A stretch of 64,000 bases of DNA from the NCBI GenBank assembly GCA_024760905.1, contig CM045729.1, positions 74,774,050-74,838,049 of the forward strand, read 5' to 3'. This DNA is from Plotosus lineatus. Its lineage: Eukaryota > Chordata > Actinopteri > Siluriformes > Plotosidae. The translations under genes and the position numbers were made by a program. The notes under the pieces are model-generated. The model searched no databases. It saw only the letters and a program-made list of their open reading frames with translations, and was not told the origin of the DNA. Each line of letters starts with the position of its first letter. The stretch's first letter is position 1. Below are positions 13,189 to 59,776 of this stretch, piece by piece.

Positions 13189-13249
<61 letters not shown>
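13189..13249. repeat. (TA)n array left of the hairpin
   Basis: About 30 uninterrupted TA units directly abut the hairpin element on its left side. Confidence 0.95.
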
Positions 13250-13254
<5 letters not shown>

Positions 13255-13298
13255 AAAATAAAAGGACAGGACAAAGACTTTCTATTGAAACTCCATTT

Positions 13299-13353
13299 AT
13301 CACTACAGATCTGTTTCGAGGGGTGGTGAAACCATCCTCTCTCTTCAGGTGAT
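13299..13353 (-). ncRNA. Hammerhead ribozyme motif, minus strand (mirror copy)
   Basis: This is the exact reverse complement of 13396-13450 and keeps every core base: CTGAAGA at 13348-13342, GAAA at 13317-13314, and the GTA cleavage triplet ending at 13304. Transcription from either strand would therefore contain one ribozyme in sense orientation and one antisense copy able to pair with it. Confidence 0.75.
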
Positions 13354-13395
13354 TATAGAAGAATCTAATCTTCTTCTATCTAATCTCTCTCTATA

Positions 13396-13450
13396 ATCAC
13401 CTGAAGAGAGAGGATGGTTTCACCACCCCTCGAAACAGATCTGTAGTGAT
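13396..13450 (+). ncRNA. Hammerhead ribozyme motif, plus strand
   Basis: Core CTGAAGA (13401-13407) fits CUGANGA. Stem II is 13408-13431 (pairs GAG/CTC and TGGT/ACCA, loop TTC). GAAA is at 13432-13435. Stem III starts ACAG...CTGT (13435-13444), then A at 13445 as the H17 base, so the NUH triplet is GTA with predicted cleavage after 13445. Stem I pairs ATCAC (13396-13400) with GTGAT (13446-13450). Stem III is only 3-4 bp, but ACAGATCTGT is a 10-nt palindrome, which would let two molecules form the dimeric hammerhead known for newt satellite and Penelope-type motifs. Activity is not shown by sequence alone. Confidence 0.75.
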
Positions 13451-13553
13451 AAATGGAGTTTCAATAGAAAGTCTTTGTCCTCTCCTTTATTTTTGTTATT
13501 TGCTCTACCAAAAGTATTGAGCACTCTCCTACGGAAGGATCTACTCAGAAAAG

Positions 13554-13757
<204 letters not shown>

Positions 13758-13761
13758 TATA

Positions 13762-14397
13762 CAGTGATCCCTCGCTACTTTGCACTTCAGTTCCTGCGGC
13801 TTCAATGCATTATGAGTTTTTCAAAAATATTCATCGAAAAAAAAAGAAATTAAGGAAAAATAGGGGAAAAGTGAAGAAAAATGCCACAAAAAAGGCCAAT
13901 TATGCAAAAACTCCCAAACAAACAAAAACAAAAAACAACCCAAAACCACCCAACAAAAAACTACAGGGATCCCTTGCTACTTCACACTTCAATTCATGCG
14001 GTTTCAGCGCATCGCAGTTTTTTAAATAATATTAATCAAATTAAAAAATAAGAAAATTAAGGAAAAATAAGGGAAAAGTTAAGGAAAATGCCACAAAACA
14101 TCGCCAATTATGCAAAAAAACCCCCAAACAAAAACAAAAAACAACCAAAACCCCCAACAAAACTACTTACATTTTTATATCAGGTGCGTGTCTGTATGTG
14201 TGTGTATTTATATTTTATTTACATCTTATGCATTATTTTTGAATGTTTAATTGTTATTATAAGCATTTATAGCATTGAATATGTATTTATTAATATTATA
14301 TACACACATACATGTACGTATACATTAGTTGATCCTAATTCGTGGAAATTTGGTGGTTTGCGGGGATGGGGGTTGGGGGGTGTCTCAGCCCCTAATG
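13762..14397 (+). mobile_element. Tigger-like MITE (GGATCCCTCGCTACTTCG family), tandem partial copies
   Basis: Two starts of the same element lie in tandem at 13762 (CAGTGATCCCTCGCTACTTT, preceded by TA) and 13964 (CAGGGATCCCTTGCTACTTC). Both are followed by the family's A-rich interior (AAAAACAAAAACAACC-type). The second runs to about 14397 without its usual right terminus. Complete relatives lie at 22469-22967, 32365-32834 and 42696-43661. TA targets and the terminal wording suggest TcMar/pogo, but no transposase is seen. Confidence 0.7.
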
Positions 14398-28540: not shown

Positions 28541-29053
28541 GTGAGCCTAGGACTGGGAGTAGGGACTTTGAATGTTGGAACTAGGCAAGGAAAAGATAGG
28601 GAGCTGGCTGACATGATGCAGAGGAGGAAGGTGGACATACTGTGTGTTCAGGAGACCAGGTGGAAAGGTAGCAAGGCTAGAAGCATAGGATCAGGGTTTA
28701 AGCTGTTTTATAATGGTGTGGATGGGAAGAGAAATGGAGTAGGAGTCATCTTGAAGGAGGAGTTTGTCAGGAATGTTCTAGAAGTGAAAATAGTGTCAGA
28801 CAGAGTGATGAGTCTCAAGTTAGAAATTGAAGGCATGATGTTCAATGTTGTTACTGCTTATACACCACAGGCAGGATGTGAGCGAGAAGAGAAGGAGAGA
28901 TTCTGGAGTGAGTTAGATGAAGTGATGCAGAATACCCCCAAAGATGAAAGAGTAGTCATTGGGGCAGACTTCAATGGACATGTTGGTGCAGGAAACAGGG
29001 GGGACGAGGAAGTGATGGGCAGGTTTGGTATCCAGGACAGGAACGCAGAATGA
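28541..29053 (+). pseudogene. RTE APE-type endonuclease fragment
   Basis: About 170 residues: GTLNVGTRQGKDRELADMMQ, DILCVQETRWKG (catalytic Glu), NVVTAYTPQAG, VVIGADFNGHVG. It stops at 29051-29053, before the SDH-type end of the domain, and the downstream ORF is in another frame. In intact RTE elements endonuclease and RT form one protein. Confidence 0.88.
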
Positions 29054-29261
29054 CAGCTGTTGGTAGATTTTGCAAAAAGGATGGAAAAGGCTGTTGTGAA
29101 TACATTCTTCCAGAAGAGAGAGGAGCATAGAGTGACTTATAAAAACGGAGGTAGGAGCACACAGGAGACTACATCTTGTGCAGGTGATGTAATTTGAAGG
29201 AAGTCAGTGACTGCAAAGTAGTAGCGGGTGAGAGTGTTGCCAAACAGCATAGGATGGTGGT

Positions 29262-31133
29262 GTGCAGGATGATGCTGATGGTGAGGAAGGTGAAGAAGGC
29301 AAAGGCAGAGCAGAAGACAAAGGGTGGAAGCTGAAAAAGGAAGAGTGTTGGGTTGTCTTCAAGGAGGAGTTGAAACAGGCTTTGGGTAGTCAGGAAGTGC
29401 TTTCAGATGACTGGACAACCACCGCCAATGTGATCAGGGAGACCGGTAGGACAGTACTTGGTGTGTCCTCTGGAAGGAAAGTAGATAAGGAAACTTGGTG
29501 GTGGAATGAGGAAGTGCAGGAGTGTGTACAAAAGAAGACGTCAGCTAAGAAGAAGTGGGACATTGAGAGGACTGAAGAGAGTAAACAGGAGTACAGGGAG
29601 ACACAGCGTAAGGCGAAGGTAGCGGTGTCAAAGGCCAAACAGAGGATGTATGATGACTTGTATGATAGGTTGGACAGTAAGGAGGGAGAAAATGATTTAT
29701 ACAGGTTAGCACAGCAGAGAAACAGAAATGGGAAAGACGTGCAGCAAGTTAGAGTGATAAAGGACAGAGAGGGAAATGTATTGACTGATGACAGAAGTGT
29801 GCTGGGAAGATGGAAAGAGTACTTCGAAGAGCTGATGAATGAGGAAAATGAGAGAGAAAAAAGAGTAGAAGAGGTGACGGTTGAGGACCAGGAACTAGCA
29901 AAGATTAGTAAGGGTGAAGTGAGGAGGGCATTGAAGAGGATGAAGAGTGGAAAGGCAGTTGGCCCTGATGACATACCGGTGGAGATATGGAAGTGTCTAG
30001 GAGAGGAAGCAGTAGATTTCCTGACAAGAACATTCAACAAGGTCTTAGAGAGTGAGAGGATGCCAGAGGAATGGAGGAGAAGTGTGCTGGTGCCCATTTT
30101 TAAGAACAAGGGAGATGTGCAGAGTTGTGGCAACTACAGAGGGATAAAGTTGATGAGCCATATGATGAAGTTATGGGAAAGAATAGTGGAAGCAAGACTA
30201 AGGGCAGAGGTCAGCATTTGTGAACAACAGTTTGGTTTCATGCCAAGAAAGAGCACCACAGATGCAGTGTTTGCCTTGAGGATGTTAATAGAGAAGTACA
30301 CAGAAGGTCAGAAGGATCTGCATTGTGCCTTTGTGCATCTGGAGAAAGCATATGACAGGGTGCTGAGAGAGGAACTGTGGTATTGCATGAGAAAGTCTGG
30401 AGTGGCAGAGAAGTGTGTTAGAGTGGTGCAAGCCATGTATGAGAGATATAAGACAGTGGTGAGGTGTGCTGTCAGTGTGACAGAAGAGTTCAAGGTGGAG
30501 GTGAGACTGCATCAAGGGTCAGCTCTGAGCCCCTTCTTGTTTGCTATGGTGATGGACAGGCTGACAGACGAGGTTAGACAAGACTCTCCATGGACTATGA
30601 TATTTGCAGATGACATTGTGATCTGCAGTGAGAGCAGAGAACAAGTGCAGGAAAACCTAGAGAGGTGGAGGTATGCCCTGGAAAGGAAGGGAATGAAGGT
30701 TAGCCTCAGTAAGACAGAATACATGTGTATGAATGCCAAGGACCCAAGAGGAACGGTGAGGTTACAAGGAGCAGAGATAAGAAAGGTGGAGGATTTTAAG
30801 TACTTAGGCTCAACAATCCAGAGCAATGGAGAGTGTGGAAAAGAGGTGAAGAAGCGTGTGCAGGCTAGTTGGAATGGTTGGAGAAAAGTGTCCAGTGTGA
30901 TGTGTGATAGGAAGGTATCGGCAAAAATGAAAGGAAAAGTGTACAAGACGGTGTTGAGGCCAGCGATGTTGTATGGTTTAGAAACAGTGGCACTGAGAAA
31001 AAGACAGGAGGCAGAGCTGGAGGTAGCAGAGATGAAAATGTTGAGGTTCTCTTTGGGAGTAACGAGGATGGATTGGATCAGGAATGAGCACATGAGAAGG
31101 ACAGCGTTTTGGAGACAAAGTCAGAGAGGCTAG
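29262..31133 (+). CDS. RTE reverse transcriptase ORF (623 codons, apparent motif A mutation)
   Basis: Linker (1-230), then RT: SGKAVGPDDIPVEIWKCLG near 230-245, IFKNKGDVQSCGNYRGIKLM near 285, QFGFMPRKSTTDAVFALRM near 325, motif A FVHLEKAYDRV near 357-367, LHQGSALSPFLFAMVMD near 415, and motif C FADD at 448-451, followed by the thumb and C-terminal block. In motif A codon 359 (30336-30338) is CAT (His). Related RTE copies and the Rex3 copy here have FVDLEKA, so a metal-binding Asp is probably lost. The ORF ends at 31133 where a small deletion shifts the frame. The endonuclease is detached upstream. Likely inactive despite its length. Confidence 0.88.
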   Translation: MQDDADGEEGEEGKGRAEDKGWKLKKEECWVVFKEELKQALGSQEVLSDDWTTTANVIRETGRTVLGVSSGRKVDKETWWWNEEVQECVQKKTSAKKKWDIERTEESKQEYRETQRKAKVAVSKAKQRMYDDLYDRLDSKEGENDLYRLAQQRNRNGKDVQQVRVIKDREGNVLTDDRSVLGRWKEYFEELMNEENEREKRVEEVTVEDQELAKISKGEVRRALKRMKSGKAVGPDDIPVEIWKCLGEEAVDFLTRTFNKVLESERMPEEWRRSVLVPIFKNKGDVQSCGNYRGIKLMSHMMKLWERIVEARLRAEVSICEQQFGFMPRKSTTDAVFALRMLIEKYTEGQKDLHCAFVHLEKAYDRVLREELWYCMRKSGVAEKCVRVVQAMYERYKTVVRCAVSVTEEFKVEVRLHQGSALSPFLFAMVMDRLTDEVRQDSPWTMIFADDIVICSESREQVQENLERWRYALERKGMKVSLSKTEYMCMNAKDPRGTVRLQGAEIRKVEDFKYLGSTIQSNGECGKEVKKRVQASWNGWRKVSSVMCDRKVSAKMKGKVYKTVLRPAMLYGLETVALRKRQEAELEVAEMKMLRFSLGVTRMDWIRNEHMRRTAFWRQSQRG

Positions 31134-43044: not shown

Positions 43045-43390
43045 TTCATCAGTTCATTTTCTGCACCCGCTTAATCCTAATTTGGGTCGCAGGGAGGCTG
43101 GCGCCCATCCCAGCCAACTTCGGGCGAGGGCAGAGTACACCCTGGACAGCTCGCCAGGCCATCGCAGGACGGAAACACGCTGACGGCTTTGCAACCTACT
43201 CTTGTCGAAAGTCAGCAATGGTTCTTTGACATGCCTCACACCATAGACAGTGACAGACATGGCTGGCCTTTGATAACCCAGTTAGCTCCACTGGGGGGGG
43301 ACAGTGACAACCTTGTGGAGAGTGGGACTCGAACCCCCAACCTTTGGATCCGCGATCCAGCGCCCTCTACCACTAGACCACCACTGCCCC
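43045..43390 (-). mobile_element. tRNA-derived SINE, family A, full length
   Basis: Complete minus copy with a 12-bp TSD, GCATTGAATATG, at 43033-43044 and 43391-43402. Head GGGACTCGAACCCCCAACC, tail TTTTCTGCACCCGCTTAATC. One of the least diverged copies in the window. Confidence 0.96.
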
Positions 43391-58696: not shown

Positions 58697-59776
58697 TCAC
58701 TCCATCCTTCCCTCACTCGTAAACAAGACCCCAAGATACTGAAACTCCTCCACTTGGGGCAGGACCTCATTCCCGACCCGGAGGGTGCATTCCACCATTG
58801 TCCGACTGAGAACCATGGCCTCGGACTTGGAAGAACTGATCTTCATCCCAGCTGCTTTGCACTCGGCTGTGAATCGCTCCAATGAGAGCTGGAGGTCCCG
58901 ACTTGATGAAGCCAAAAGGACAACATCATCCGTAAAAAGCAGAGACGATATCCGACGGCCACCAAACCAGAACCCCTCATCGCCTCGACTGCGCCTAGAA
59001 ATTCTGTCCATAAAAATTATGAACAGAATCGGTGACAAAGGACAGCCTTGGCGGACTCCAACTCCCACTGGAAACGAATCCGACCTGCTGTTACCTATAT
59101 GGACCAAACTCTGGCTCCGGTGATACAGCAACCGAATAGCTTGTAGCAACGGGTCCGGAACGCCGTACTCTCGGAGCACGCCCCACAAGATCGTTCGAAG
59201 AACACGGTCGAAAGCCTTCTCCAAATCCACAAAGCACATGTGGACAGATTGGGCAAACTCCCATGTCCCCTCCAGAATTCTGTGGAGCGTATAGAGTTGG
59301 TCAAGAGTGCTACAGCCAGGACGAAAATCACATTGTTCCTCCTGAATCCGAGGTTCGACTATCGGTCGGATCCTCCTCTCTAGTACCCCTGCATAGACTT
59401 TCCCAGGTAGGCTGAGGAGTGTAATTCCCCGATAATTGGAACACACCCTCCGGTCCCCCTTCTTAAAAATTGGGACCACCACCCCAGTTTGCCAATCCAG
59501 AGGTACAGCCCCTGATGACCACGCGATGTTGCAGAGATGTGTCAACCATGACAGTCCTACAACATCCAGAGTCCTGAGATATTCCGGGCGGATCTCGTCC
59601 AACCCCGGAGCTCGACCACCGACGAGCTTTTTGACAACCTCAGTGACCTTCTCTCCAGTGATGGGCGAACCCTCACCCGAACCCCCAGGGTCTTCCTCTT
59701 CCACGGAGGGCGTGTTGGTGGGATTGAGGAGGTCCTCAAAGTATTCCCTCCACCTCTCGACAACATCCCCAGTCAA
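58697..59776 (-). pseudogene. Rex3 reverse transcriptase, 359-codon open segment
   Basis: Contains WREYFEDLLNPTNTPS, KLVGGRAPGLDEIRPEYL, VVPIFKKGDRRVCSNYRGIT, motif A MCFVDLEKAFDRV (intact Asp), VGVRQGCPLSPILFIIFMD and motif C FTDD, where most elements have FADD. Truncated at both ends relative to an intact Rex3 protein. Confidence 0.88.

Follow-up and report, generated by a model that had tools for sequence, protein, structure and literature searches.

Head-to-head units with hammerhead-like motifs in Plotosus lineatus: a probable Penelope-like insertion product, from a family with palindromes centred at a predicted ribozyme cut

The 64,000-nt stretch of Plotosus lineatus DNA analysed in the current study (the window) carries two inverted copies of a 174-nt repeat unit, each with a hammerhead-like motif. 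The locus belongs to the kind of structure described for Penelope elements, in which two pLTRs lie head-to-head and one of them bears a tail, and it is probably a single pLTR insertion by a Penelope-like element, made by priming at two ends and with hammerhead-cut ends among those used. To the described structure are added here a near-strict pairing of two start sites, palindrome centres that are distinct and appear templated, and an excess of palindromes at the predicted cut. It is evenly balanced whether the family also preserves a fossil record of hammerhead self-cleavage, in which each cut RNA was reverse-transcribed from both ends of a DNA break so that the palindrome centre marks the cleavage site; the ribozyme would then be an alternative maker of 5' ends, and insertion would be two-ended with a fixed start for each end.

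The inverted arms (13255–13359 and 13390–13494) are 105 nt each and 97% complementary. Aligned to the family unit (numbered q1–q174, with the hammerhead at q13–q67 and the predicted cut at q62/q63), the left arm is a tail-less copy of q1–q116 (13250–13365, minus strand) and the right arm a tailed copy of q7–q172 (13390–13552, plus strand). The tail, a 3' extension of about q119–q174 which as a rule is found on one arm per pair, lies at 13497–13554 (plus strand). The arms meet at a spacer (13366–13389) that differs from those of the other copies examined. A (TA)30 tract (13190–13249) borders the 3' end of the left arm, and a (TA)n-rich tract (13556–13761) that of the right. The sequence-only reading had recognized two identical hammerhead-like motifs in one inverted repeat, the same 55 nt with core and three stems being present in both arms. 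This is borne out within the 105-bp arms, at 13396–13450 on the plus strand (descriptor scan) and 13299–13353 on the minus strand (descriptor scan and inspection), and its predicted cuts, after 13445 (plus) and after 13304 (minus, between 13304 and 13303), agree with ours.

Both motifs have the layout ATCAC-CTGAAGA-(stem II)-GAA-ACAGATCTGT-A^GTGAT. In the right motif, stem I pairs 13396–13400 with 13446–13450 and the core CTGAAGA occupies 13401–13407, followed by stem II, GAA, stem III (ACAGATCTGT) and the predicted cut. Stem III would form three pairs with a palindromic tetraloop as a monomer and ten pairs as a dimer. Type I hammerheads are defined by CUGANGA, GAA, an A-U pair at 15.1–16.1 and H17, together with three stems; these core letters and stems are all present, by descriptor and by sequence, and the motif is, on that basis, type I hammerhead-like. 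A descriptor of core and three stems finds only these two sites in the 64 kb, both strands included, and one match in 60 first-order Markov windows of 64 kb. The simulated rate, very rough as it rests on a single event, would give about 350 matches in 1.33 Gb, so the motif by itself is no proof of a hammerhead. A covariance score below threshold had been named beforehand as evidence against the motif, and such a score was obtained: no hammerhead match in the window reaches the Rfam gathering thresholds, and Hammerhead_1 (RF00163) aligns over its full length at 13395–13450 (plus strand) with 10.7 bits, against a gathering cut-off of 34. Hammerhead was also not among the matches listed by Rfam for three further loci. 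A match to mir-3817 (50.3 bits, gathering 90) was taken as a hairpin artefact and rejected. When the isolated 55 nt are folded with RNAfold, stems I and II form and part of the core pairs in place of stem III; a 310-nt transcript folds into a long hairpin. Among 16 non-identical arms, changes fall at 17 of 188 core positions and 79 of 1,514 elsewhere; the core has varied at least as much as the rest, U16.1 being among the altered positions, so no constraint is visible in the inserted copies, as judged from these 16 usable arms.

A 58-mer of the motif occurs in 6,136 exact copies in the 1.33-Gb genome (3,076 forward, 3,060 reverse; control 0). A family search returned 80 matches, representing both strands of 40 palindromic copies (40 scored of 1,321 first-look candidates); at 29 loci among these the arms are near-invariant and the centre is different in every copy. 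Pairing was studied at 100 listed 58-mer places of the 6,136 (loci L030–L116), none of them beyond the first 14 Mb of contig C1; the sample needs at least one intact motif per locus. Eight loci were left out as repeats of places already counted (L036–L038, L040, L044, L045, L047 and L059), and arm alignments shorter than 22 nt were dropped (25 nt in one analysis). In the sample, 53 pairs are head-to-head and 38 units or fragments stand unpaired; some of the latter are bystander fragments, and others may have a partner below the detectable length. The motif is thus multi-copy and inverted pairs recur as a family, a point that had been put up for checking, but the tight inverted pair, thought unusual in the sequence-only reading, is the commonest arrangement in the sample, and head-to-head inverted pLTRs are already described for Penelope in the part of PMC3846280 consulted. 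Tracts of (TA)n lie to the left of 46 and to the right of 47 of the 53 pairs, and at both outer ends of 42; these counts mix possible target TA with TA made at insertion. Adjacent head-to-tail units were absent from the loci of the 100-place sample, where units are instead head-to-head, and a retrozyme tandem array is ruled out within it. Same-strand units farther apart do occur (L034, L043, L064, L085).

By sequence comparison, the 174-nt unit is the 3' end of an element that encodes a reverse transcriptase (RT) and a GIY-YIG-type endonuclease. The same body sequence lies upstream of ten units, spread over nine of the sampled loci. In the body at C1:6842200-6845200, an RT piece with the motif YRDDGL is followed by a GIY-YIG-like piece that ends about 310 nt upstream of a tail-less unit on the same strand; a frame break separates the two pieces in this copy, and a tailed inverted unit is joined head-to-head to the truncated 5' side of the body. 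Longer joins of this type, an inverted unit plus a body with an RT-encoding arm, were found at L119 and L120. None of the copies inspected is complete with a direct pLTR on its 5' side. The sequence-only reading had linked the motif to the RT and GIY-YIG sequences of Penelope-like elements (PLEs), and had regarded a repeat never near PLE sequences and never multi-copy as the contrary outcome; the repeat is in fact multi-copy, and it lies beside both pieces at C1:6842200-6845200. Two Penelope traits are therefore present, namely inverted pLTRs with a tail on one (46 of 53 pairs, see below) and an RT with a C-terminal GIY-YIG domain, the latter as pieces at this locus and in one frame in a homologue, P0001 (74% identical). 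As separate observations, the RT-encoding arms of L119 (contig C5) and L120 (contig C2) begin within a few bases of one point (..KAHFFLNPDKT..), as if at another fixed 5' end or from a shared ancestor, and at L105 a divergent parent body is followed by a near-unchanged unit (98%), as if units had been swapped between subfamilies.

The RT piece has 108 matches in the genome, some being pieces of one copy, and the full-length stop-free matches have open frames of up to 718 aa. Its homologues show 73–75% identity, including a Nematostella protein (73%); the one named fish match listed, from the pipefish Entelurus, has 64%. The higher identity to the Nematostella protein than to that of Entelurus may point to horizontal transfer. 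A Foldseek search with the model of P0001 recovered retroviral RT (probability 0.96) and the GIY-YIG nuclease T4 EndoII (0.66–0.87), with a best E-value of 0.043. The Pfam GIY-YIG match to the element piece is weak (13 bits, E 0.13, cut-off 22.6), and among 39 homologues two match, the better at 8.4e-4. Pfam RVT_1 matched neither the three element pieces nor the 39 homologues; NCBIfam and a phage collection gave no match, and the GIY-YIG region had no relevant match among sequences of solved structures. A single-sequence fold of the GIY-YIG piece was uninformative (pLDDT 54).

The units end at two distinct 3' positions. Among unpaired units, 23 end near q174 (the tail), 12 within q105–130 and three elsewhere. 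In 46 of the 53 pairs, one tailed arm (end at q150 or beyond) is combined with one tail-less arm (end at q105–130); of the other seven, two are tailed on both arms, two on neither, and three have an arm ending at q89. Leaving out the last three, 46 of 50 pairs are mixed against 22.5 expected if the ends were independent, and the probability of at least 46 of 50 is 2e-10 even at the most favourable proportion of 50%. The first 29 loci gave a similar picture, with a tail on one side in 28 and none in one. Arms cut short at the 5' side are more often tailed (19) than tail-less (4, one of which, L112, is an internal deletion), with one further pair having both; the excess is partly a detection bias, because a tail-less arm whose cut lies past about q93 falls under the detectable length; for cuts before q93 the counts are 9 and 4. 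Breakpoints of 10 of the 19 cut-short tailed arms fall in q97–135, near the inner start, a clustering that is suggestive only.

The centres of the palindromes were compared in 58 pairs with both arms starting at or before q7, out of 83 pairs in L001–L116. All 46 spacers of at least 8 nt are distinct. For the 41 of at least 12 nt, the longest match to the initial 60 nt of the unit averages 8.44, against 5.96 (sd 0.17) expected from a first-order model; no excess was seen against the rest of the unit (5.93, 6.06 expected). In the 53 sampled pairs, the starts of the two arms differ by more than 8 nt in 23 (e.g. q80/q1, q132/q2, q1/q45), in one of them (L112) through an internal deletion. The distinct spacers and unequal arm starts indicate that each palindrome was made anew. 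The preferred reading is that two cDNAs were assembled into the palindrome at insertion, the junction probably being sealed by synthesis that copied nearby sequence.

These centres bear on two other explanations. A fold-back DNA transposon or MITE, moving as a palindromic unit and flanked by TA duplications, with the hammerhead match a coincidence, would account for the inverted repeat, the TA flanks, the high copy number and the homogeneity, and a chance hammerhead motif is not negligible genome-wide. Such an origin is very improbable, as the 46 spacers share no common centre, which rules out descent from one palindromic master, as some copies are truncated or have a single arm, as the two ends are unlike, and as an RT/endonuclease element carries the unit at its 3' end. 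Self-priming, whereby the 3' end of one cDNA snaps back and primes the copying of that cDNA into a second arm, has been proposed for rotifer Penelope palindromes, where it is argued from junction palindromes in the portion of PMC3846280 available. In our sample it would suit the 30 of 53 pairs whose arms start within 8 nt of each other, as well as the double-ended q63 pairs described below. It is nevertheless unlikely as the general explanation: fold-back needs a later deletion to give the unequal starts, which exclude it as the only route, and in 46 of 53 pairs the end of the tail-less arm is fixed at an internal position (about q114–118). For equal-armed pairs, self-priming is possible.

At their 5' side, short units share sequence only as far as a defined point, the A of ATTCTTC being kept in 77 of 103 (long copies excluded). 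The preceding base in these units is G in 34, A in 20, T in 17 and C in 6, and in a stricter set it is G in 22 of 49 arms, against a background of 20% (p 5e-5, 33 spacers), compared with C in 13 of 13 long copies. The G excess hints at a copied cap. This sharp 5' boundary, with a mixed base before it, would also be expected if the short units were not pLTR copies of a coding element but a separate family, SINE-like or retrozyme, mobilised in trans. The 6,136 exact motifs against 108 RT matches lend this some weight, and PLEs have been suggested to mobilise retrozymes, according to the text of PMC7761336 at hand. Such a family is doubtful, if worth keeping in mind, since the same unit sits at the 3' end of the coding element, the sample holds no adjacent head-to-tail dimers, and the short form would also arise if reverse transcription of the element's own RNA began within its 5' pLTR.

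To examine the predicted cut, we counted genome-wide the palindromes that match the pattern reverse arm - N{0,12} - arm, with the centre set to a given position of the unit. Centred at q63 there are 120, against 3, 10 and 6 at the only three control positions used (q31, q73 and q83, respectively). Among 50 listed of the 120 sites, 13 are centred on the 10-nt stem-III palindrome, a class that would fit the annealing of two self-complementary cDNA ends; stem III may thus help to join them. Of the 74 arms at the remaining 37 sites, 60 begin at q62 or q63, and the spacers there are varied (0–12 nt). Starts at q63 are what run-off on hammerhead-cut RNA would predict, and the excess of palindromes at this position suggests that the hammerhead cleaves in vivo in the animal. 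Two of the listed sites, C1:51132887 and C1:51133116, are 229 bp apart and have an identical centre. The single-copy version of the test, in which a TA flank is joined directly to the unit, gave 42 distinct sites at q63 against 21 (counted by eye) at q73; it is a weak test, as TA microhomology could explain much of this excess. Mixed pairs of q1 and q63 arms were absent among the 53 sampled, where 10.4 would be expected of independent arms, a rough figure obtained by extrapolation from 29 full pairs in 1% of the genome. Their absence suggests that both arms of a pair come from one RNA.

Arrest of RT at the folded hammerhead could also produce a peak at q63, with no ribozyme cleavage, as stem III is met directly after q62 and arms starting at q62 are nearly as frequent as those at q63 (28 and 32 of 74). 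Stem III is, however, merely some 3 bp with a tetraloop, and a stop at stem I would yield q68 and not q63. Both arms reach q62 or further upstream in only 9 of the 37 centres, and in 10 of 37 a lone A or T separates two q63 ends, as run-off plus the addition of one base would give. Arrest is accordingly rather unlikely, yet a serious competitor to cleavage. Among the titles and abstract openings covered by an incomplete literature search, none concerned genomic copies ending at a Penelope hammerhead cut.

The RT/endonuclease association, the two 3' termini, the apparently templated spacers, the unequal starts and the q62/q63 excess may be brought together in one sequence of events. The element, encoding RT and a GIY-YIG-type endonuclease, would produce an RNA with a type I hammerhead close to the 5' terminus. 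The two DNA ends at a (TA)-rich site would each prime reverse transcription on the same RNA, one at the outer start (about q174, giving the tail) and the other at the inner start (about q114–118), and both cDNAs would run toward the RNA 5' end. There they would run off at the RNA's own terminus (q1/q2, probably the transcription start), or else stop early; perhaps a few per cent of events would instead involve run-off at q63, the end left by hammerhead cutting. The two cDNA ends would then be joined by error-prone synthesis copying nearby unit sequence, the outcome being, at every insertion, a fresh head-to-head palindrome and a spacer of its own. Priming on both strands, the use of one shared RNA, its capped 5' end and ribozyme cleavage in vivo are the steps that we infer. 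In L1 twin priming, two primings at one target give inverted pieces that are joined inside and do not overlap. The process proposed here resembles it in having two primings per target and inverted pieces joined internally, but differs in that both arms often span the same q1–q116.

The role of Penelope hammerheads has been termed a mystery (in the part of PMC7761336 drawn on), and the origin of inverted pLTR pairs is treated as unsettled in the portions of PMC3846280 and PMC11167929 available. In a young family with thousands of near-identical short insertions, the start and end points of reverse transcription, and the coincidence of these ends with ribozyme cleavage, become measurable from sequence. 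As far as the available text of PMC3846280 goes, Penelope of Adineta vaga is alike in its head-to-head inverted pLTRs, with an optional short tail on one, in its junction palindromes, and in its RT and GIY-YIG endonuclease. It differs in that the short head-to-head pair by itself outnumbers every other product in our sample, the tail is about 56–60 nt here and 31 there, the asymmetry is counted here (46 of 53), and the unequal starts argue against self-priming for some pairs. Poseidon PAc of Anolis, from the sections of PMC11167929 consulted, shares a hammerhead near the ORF start and two internal RT starts that define a tail; its AT-rich targets, and its cleavage and extension of both target strands, would also have a counterpart in the process proposed here. 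Those sections report no RNA-seq reads at the hammerhead cut, whereas here genomic palindromes pile up at that point, and the start sites lie about 50 and 110 nt downstream of it. Metazoan non-LTR retrozymes, as presented in the part of PMC7229834 seen, are similar in unit size, in low GC and in a type I hammerhead whose short stem III carries a palindromic tetraloop; they are tandem repeats, in contrast to the head-to-head pairs or single units described here, which are tied to an RT/GIY-YIG element.

Other repeats are present in the window. Just beyond the right (TA)n-rich tract (13762–14160) are two diverged repeat copies about 200 bp apart, starting CAGTGATCCCTCGCTACTT and CAGGGATCCCTTGCTACTT, which we take to resemble a hAT end. 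Two LINE-type reverse transcriptase regions occur at 28541–31133 and 58697–59776, the former with an exo/endonuclease domain upstream; a LINE frame in the window has up to 85% identity over 97% of its length to fish proteins, the named matches listed being from teleosts. A tRNA-like match (33.2 bits) at 43314–43387 may be either a tRNA gene or the start of a SINE derived from a tRNA.
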